Origin: Thermoproteus uzoniensis 768-20
GTDB lineage: Archaea > Thermoproteota > Thermoprotei > Thermoproteales > Thermoproteaceae
Length of the DNA stretch: 64,000 nucleotides
Assembly: GCF_000193375.1 (NCBI RefSeq)
Contig: NC_015315.1
Span: forward strand, 1,496,622-1,560,621
Direction: 5' to 3'
The notes under the pieces: model-generated
Databases searched by the model: none
What the model saw: the letters and a program-made list of their open reading frames with translations, nothing else
Told to the model about the DNA's origin: nothing
Shown: piece by piece, positions 52,938-54,788 of the stretch
How the letters are laid out: each line of letters opens with the position of its first letter
How positions within the stretch are numbered: position 1 is the first letter of the stretch
Translations under genes and position numbers: made by a program

Positions 52938-53027
52938 GGGCCCGTAGTCTAGCGGTAGGATTGAAAGCCGTTCCCTAAAGCCCGCCTGACGCGCGGGAGA
53001 TCCCGGGTTCAAATCCCGGCGGGCCCA
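52938..53027 (+). tRNA. tRNA-Val (anticodon GAC) with non-canonical intron
   Basis: Acceptor GGGCCCG/CGGGCCC, discriminator A, T arm CCGGG-TTCAAAT-CCCGG and anticodon arm CCCGC-CTGACGC-GCGGG (anticodon GAC) are clear. About 18 extra bases (roughly 52965-52980) lie between the D stem (GTC/GAT) and the anticodon stem, so an intron interrupts position about 25/26 or 26/27, not the canonical 37/38. TATA box tttaaaaata lies about 24 bp upstream. Confidence 0.9.
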
Positions 53028-53608: not shown

Positions 53609-53706
53609 AGTCCGAGCCGGTCCGGCGCTTCGGCCTGACTCCTCTGCCTAGGCGTCTTCGCGGCGCCGCCTCGGCGGTAAGGATAAAAACCTCCGCGCTT
53701 TGTCTT

Positions 53707-53758
53707 TCGGTGAAGAGAGGCGATGGCTGAGCGGTGGTGAGGGATTTGAACGCTGATA
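53707..53758 (+). ncRNA. C/D box sRNA predicted to guide tRNA C56 2'-O-methylation
   Basis: Four boxes in correct order: C GTGAAGA (53710-53716), D' CTGA (53727-53730), C' TGGTGA (53735-53740), D CTGA (53753-53756), with guides of 10 and 12 nt and a 4-nt D'-C' spacer. A TATA box (gataaaaac, 53682-53690) lies about 24 bp before the C box. The D guide gggatttgaac is complementary to gttcaaatccc, the T-loop of the tRNA-Leu, -Val and -Ser genes here. The fifth base before the D box pairs with C56. Pyrobaculum is known to make Cm56 with a C/D sRNA instead of the protein aTrm56. The D' guide (gaggcgatgg) target is unknown. Confidence 0.72.
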
Positions 53759-53786
53759 TCTTTTTAACGCCGGCCGACCTACCGGC

Positions 53787-54788
53787 GTGTTCGACGTCGA
53801 GATGTCGGTGGATTTGGGCAACGGCCTTGTCCTGGAGCTGAGGCGCGACGGCGCCAAGCTCGGCTCGTCCTTCGTGCCGGGGGAGGTCTCTGTGAGGAAC
53901 GGAGAGGTGCTGGTGGGCGGCAGGCCTCTGGCGTTCACCTACGCGATTAAATGCCCTGTCAAGGTCGGCGGGGTCGAGCTCTGCGGCGAGGCGCGCAGGA
54001 GGCCTAGGTTTATATACAGGGCGGCCTTCGCCCCGGGCCTATCGGACGCGTTGAGGATAGCCGAGCTCTACGCCACGAACGCGCTCAATAGAGGCGACTG
54101 CCTCGCCCGCTACCTCTACTCGCTCGTGCGGGGCTCCGCGGCTCTCTGGGATATATACTACAGGAAGGCCCCGCGGCTTGCCGGCGGCGTCTGCGGCTAC
54201 GTGGACCGCTACTTCGCCTCGCGCGGCTTGAGGGAGCTGGCGGCCCACGACCCGTCGGCCTTCTCGGACCTCGACGAGTGGACGCGGGCGGTTCTAGGCC
54301 TCTTGAGGTTCGGCGACGCCTTGAGGCTCGTCGACAGGAACTGGAGGGGGTTCGCTGTGGCTATGCGGTACGGCTTGTACTCGGCCTTGAGCTGGGATCT
54401 TCCCCTAGACGGCGACTCGTGGATGCTCCTCTTGGGCCTCTACTCGGCGTTGGACCCCTTCGCGGTCCCCGGCGGCGTTGCCCTGGACGTGGGGATTCTG
54501 CGGGCTCTGCCGTACCTCGTGGCGAGGCTGATGGGGGGCTTCGCGGTGTTGTTCTCGTCGGGGGGCCGCCCGTTCACCGCCTCTAACTTGAACGTCATGG
54601 TCTCCGGCGGGAGGATTAGAGGCGCCTACGCCTCGTGCGACGGCGATAGGTGCGTCGTGGGGGACCTCTACTTCAACATCTGCGTGGACGCGGACTGCGC
54701 GGTGGTCAGGACGTGGGATTTCGAGTTCAGGGGGAGGCCGGTGTGCTCGGACTTGTATACCTTCGTGGCGATTCGTCCTTGTAAATAG
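53787..54788 (+). CDS. Hypothetical protein, 333 aa
   Basis: I do not recognise this protein. GTG 53787 is about 24 bp after ctttttaac; ATG 53802 is a second option. It has no signal peptide or membrane helix: a beta-rich N terminus (VDLGNGLVLELRRDG), a long helical middle with many Arg/Tyr (LRIAELYATNALNRGDCLARYLYSLVRG), and a beta-rich C terminus with several Cys (SCDGDRCVVGDLYFNICVDADC). Codon use matches the neighbours. The paired Cys could form disulfides. Confidence 0.6.
   Translation: MFDVEMSVDLGNGLVLELRRDGAKLGSSFVPGEVSVRNGEVLVGGRPLAFTYAIKCPVKVGGVELCGEARRRPRFIYRAAFAPGLSDALRIAELYATNALNRGDCLARYLYSLVRGSAALWDIYYRKAPRLAGGVCGYVDRYFASRGLRELAAHDPSAFSDLDEWTRAVLGLLRFGDALRLVDRNWRGFAVAMRYGLYSALSWDLPLDGDSWMLLLGLYSALDPFAVPGGVALDVGILRALPYLVARLMGGFAVLFSSGGRPFTASNLNVMVSGGRIRGAYASCDGDRCVVGDLYFNICVDADCAVVRTWDFEFRGRPVCSDLYTFVAIRPCK

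Follow-up and report, generated by a model that had tools for sequence, protein, structure and literature searches.

In other archaea, the 2′-O-methylated C56 of tRNA (Cm56) is the product of aTrm56 (COG1303, PF01994), a SPOUT methyltransferase that acts as a protein enzyme with no guide RNA, as opposed to the RNA-guided system that we propose for Thermoproteus. In Pyrobaculum aerophilum, Cm56 is attributed to a C/D sRNP (Renalier 2005, as cited in PMC7912444, PMC6313347 and PMC5372735). C/D guides are limited to 10 base pairs (Yang et al. 2016, cited in PMC7089733), and in tRNA-targeting sRNAs of Pyrobaculum the second guide is usually targetless (PMC7994747). Here we analyse a C/D box sRNA gene in a stretch of 64,000 nucleotides (hereafter the window) of the Thermoproteus uzoniensis 768-20 genome. 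It shares with the P. aerophilum Cm56 sRNA the same predicted job and the same lack of aTrm56 in the host. It is very likely that this sRNA is a C/D guide that directs 2′-O-methylation of C56 in all tRNAs found in the genome, replacing the lost aTrm56. The corresponding RNA (locus L008) of genome G001, which we take to be that of P. aerophilum, shares its four boxes and its downstream genes with the Thermoproteus sRNA and agrees with it in the D guide throughout positions 1-11; in the sequences of the boxes and of the D′ guide the two have drifted apart. As it is unique and syntenic, we regard this RNA as the one tested in P. aerophilum, and on sequence comparison the Thermoproteus sRNA is the ortholog of the P. 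aerophilum Cm56 guide.

Anatomy of the sRNA gene

The gene lies on the forward strand at 53708..53758 (ends approximate), and the original prediction had placed a C/D box sRNA at 53707-53758. Re-reading of the boxes, guides, spacing and TATA box upholds that placement. The canonical archaeal architecture spans window positions 53710-53756 on the + strand, with the four boxes in order, and the gene is kept in 42 genomes. The C box GTGAAGA (53710..53716) fits RTGANGA and is conserved; it is followed by the D′ guide GAGGCGATGG (53717..53726), the D′ box CTGA (53727..53730), a D′-C′ spacer of 3 bases, GCG (53731..53733), the C′ box GTGGTGA (53734..53740), the 12-nt D guide GGGATTTGAACG (53741..53752) and the conserved D box CTGA (53753..53756). 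The spacer and the D box were read directly, and the D′ and C′ boxes were read directly and from the alignment of homologs. The box order, the short D′-C′ spacer and the guide lengths (about 10-13 nt) are those of archaeal C/D sRNAs. It may be noted that the C box is GTGAAGA/GTGACGA as against the commonest form RTGATGA, and this counts against our reading. A TATA-like, AT-rich octamer GATAAAAA at 53682..53689 (+), about 26 bases 5′ of the presumed 5′ end, is a putative promoter element; an AT-rich octamer at a comparable distance is also present in many of the sRNA homologs. Downstream, a run of five T (53761..53765, +) may be a transcription terminator, judging from the bases alone.

The four-box pattern occurs at a single site in the window and in none of 150 windows simulated with an order-1 Markov model. 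Single-strand folding of the sRNA was uninformative (z value -0.19), in line with what is expected for C/D RNAs. At the gathering threshold, Rfam reported tRNA families only and no C/D family in the window. Below that threshold, the alignments of archaeal C/D families, sR2 among them, run from 53706 to 53758 exactly, so that their models cover the whole Thermoproteus RNA with a box architecture that is alike; the guides differ, and the Thermoproteus sRNA aims at tRNA.

Targets of the guides sought in tRNA and rRNA

The tRNA set consisted of the 35 loci found by Rfam in the T. uzoniensis genome. The D guide is antisense to tRNA positions 53-63 (GTTCRARTCCC) and makes an unbroken 11-base pairing in 32 of the 35 genes, all of it Watson-Crick or with one wobble. 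In all 32, the guide base that stands opposite C56 is the fifth counted from the D box, as the N+5 rule requires for methylation of that residue. Shuffled D guides matched at most 2 of the 35 genes (mean 0.08). In the three remaining genes (G000:C1:58113, 340534 and 1467795; L258, L260 and L259, respectively) the T-loop is broken by an apparent intron of 16-17 nt that sits between about positions 57 and 60 and splits the guide target; intron removal restores GGTTCGAATCCC. All 35 tRNAs therefore fit the D guide with N+5 at C56, 32 as genes and three after removal of the T-loop intron, and the 11-base pairing with positions 53-63 and the N+5 placement at C56 that were originally proposed are borne out across the set. 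For tRNA-Gly (TTCGAAT), the one mismatch originally noted is in fact a U-G wobble at position 57. As the Cm56 target is split by an intron in three pre-tRNAs, splicing before methylation is implied for these. Two of the three genes are apparently tRNA-Arg, and some of them carry further introns elsewhere. ARAGORN also called two tRNA-Pyl (CTA) genes, at window positions 52938-53027 and at G000:C1:1626224-1626313; both are probably misreadings of an ordinary intron-bearing tRNA.

Guide position 1 (window position 53752) is a G that stands opposite G52 and is unable to pair, whereas a C there would lengthen the duplex.

A search of the rRNA operon and the tRNAs gave no target of the D′ guide above shuffles (72 of 200 shuffles were equally good). 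The D′ guide is thus probably an orphan without a target, which agrees with the targetless second guides of tRNA-targeting sRNAs in Pyrobaculum (PMC7994747). An RNA with two working guides, the D′ guide methylating an rRNA or other site besides C56, would be in keeping with the fairly conserved GAGAGGCG near the C box in Thermoproteus and Pyrobaculum and with two matches, containing wobbles, in the rRNA operon. We consider it unlikely, as the best match does not exceed the shuffles, the D′ guide sequence varies between genera among the 42 homologs, and a targetless second guide is the usual state in such Pyrobaculum RNAs.

Conservation of the gene and its surroundings

With a model of sequence alone, made from 16 homologs, we found the sRNA in 42 of the 45 genomes of the order Thermoproteales, all of them in family f1 and its sister family f3. 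The three exceptions are G013 (76% complete), G040 (54% complete) and the aTrm56-bearing G019. Each of the 42 loci contains GGATTTGAACGC-N-GA with the C, D′ and C′ boxes upstream at near-fixed spacing. In G016, which may be the genome of T. tenax, the ortholog is at G016:C1:1505841-1505889 on the minus strand; for T. tenax, small-RNA sequencing is reported to have yielded 52 C/D sRNAs (PMC4644070). Positions 1-11 of the D guide are invariant, as is the frame of the D box, and position 12 varies (G in 24, A in 11 and C in 7 homologs). The search itself could enrich for guide invariance, yet no strong match in any genome deviated. A collection-wide scan with the pattern gave many chance matches in bacteria, and records of Thermoproteus, Pyrobaculum and Vulcanisaeta were also matched. 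The freezing of positions 2-11, which pair with tRNA positions 53-62, together with the drift of position 12 is consistent with the 10-base-pair limit in the literature. Pairing does not account for the G that holds position 1 in 42 of 42 homologs.

These data bear on whether the locus is a tRNA fragment, decayed or antisense, or a string that resembles a C/D RNA by chance. The D guide is indeed antisense to the T-loop over 11 nt, and the D′ region contains CTGAGCGG, which is similar to CCGAGCGG of the tRNA D-arm. However, the architecture was absent from every simulated window, the gene with its near-fixed box spacing is conserved in 42 genomes, the D-arm likeness is missing from the relatives, and base 1 is G throughout where antisense tRNA would give C. 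Such an origin of the whole locus is hardly credible. The original prediction had also suggested that the guide arose from tRNA sequence; this is not supported, as the likeness ends at 11 nt and the invariant G1 cannot pair with G52. A tRNA origin of the sRNA as such was likewise set aside as unsupported, the rest of the sRNA having no conserved likeness to tRNA.

Downstream on the same strand, an ORF of 333 aa without a Pfam match (53787..54788) adjoins the sRNA in Thermoproteus and Pyrobaculum, and a phosphoribosyltransferase gene (PF00156; 54830..55516) follows as a conserved neighbour. The order of sRNA, 333-aa ORF and phosphoribosyltransferase gene is found in Thermoproteus and in most Pyrobaculum genomes, so that Pyrobaculum has a homologous, syntenic sRNA gene. 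In G012, the alignment to the 333-aa ORF starts within the sRNA, and the two may overlap there. In the Pyrobaculum sp. genome G009 (L024/L159) the sRNA is encoded on the other strand and diverges from the ORF, unlike in other Pyrobaculum, which is possibly a local inversion. Within 0.5-3 kb around most of the f3 loci, neither neighbour was matched near the guide.

Absence of aTrm56 and reciprocal distribution

The T. uzoniensis genome is a single contig of 1,936,063 bp (99.92% complete), and the PF01994 profile of aTrm56 has no match in it. The surmise that this organism may lack aTrm56 thus proved right, and it extends to its relatives, as no PF01994 match turned up in the 19 genomes of family f1 or the 25 of family f3 (44 in all). 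Within the order, aTrm56 is confined to G019, which alone makes up family f2. As regards sensitivity, of the 397 genomes in the phylum that are at least 90% complete, the same search was positive in 369, with a typical E of about 1e-45. A fibrillarin gene is present in T. uzoniensis (E 8e-105).

On taking the 52 genomes of the class that are at least 85% complete, 28 have the guide only, 23 have aTrm56 only, none has both and one has neither (G045, 89% complete). These counts may trace to one ancestral event, so the genomes are not independent and the statistical weight is less than their number. The reciprocal pattern probably reflects one evolutionary switch in the common ancestor of f1 and f3. 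Outside these, four genomes at least 90% complete (G123, G135, G166 and G180), from families otherwise having aTrm56, appear to have no PF01994 match and no exact match to the guide. A 14-nt guide pattern gave only one-mismatch matches in these four and six further genomes, at about the level of a reversed-pattern control. The four may represent assembly gaps, or more losses or replacements of aTrm56.

Proposed function

The prediction of a Cm56 guide stands firmly at the level of sequence, supported by what is observed at the locus and in the genomes, namely the box anatomy, the complementarity to tRNA, the conservation in 42 genomes, the absence of aTrm56 and the presence of fibrillarin. For the transcription of the sRNA, its assembly into an RNP and the methylation of C56, we infer from the P. 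aerophilum case and from general knowledge of C/D RNAs. The sRNA would form an RNP with L7Ae, Nop5 and fibrillarin, in which the D guide would base-pair with positions 53-62 in the T-arm of all the tRNAs identified in the genome and would direct 2′-O-methylation of C56. The guide RNA would in this way stand in for the aTrm56 that is lost from the lineage.

It is also conceivable that a genuine C/D sRNA functions as a chaperone for tRNA or as an antisense RNA and makes no Cm56 in vivo, another enzyme methylating C56. The constraint on guide position 1, which lies outside pairing, would suit such a role. Yet the 12-nt spacer places N+5 exactly at C56 in the tRNAs, positions 2-11 are invariant where position 12 is free, aTrm56 is lost in the same lineage, and methylation of C56 has been reported for the P. 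aerophilum system, which together make this very improbable.

Returning to the Cm56 guide, we consider it moderately likely that a single switch from aTrm56 to the guide took place in the ancestor of the Thermoproteus-Pyrobaculum family and its Vulcanisaeta-containing sister family, that guide positions 2-11 have been frozen since, as one RNA must fit every tRNA at once, and that tRNAs with T-loop introns can be methylated only after splicing, so that their order of maturation is fixed.

Significance

The replacement across two families, the evolutionary trace of the 10-bp rule and the targets split by introns go beyond the reviews, although parts may already be published (Lui et al. 2018, on Pyrobaculum sRNAs). 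What was a single-species case in P. aerophilum becomes the substitution of a guide RNA for an enzyme throughout a lineage, and the two were found together in no genome. One RNA that fits every tRNA is a natural test of the number of base pairs that a C/D guide uses, and whether splicing comes before methylation can be tested directly on the intron-split targets. If the proposal is true, RNA-guided methylation sets the order of tRNA maturation for the tRNAs with T-loop introns, three of them in T. uzoniensis.
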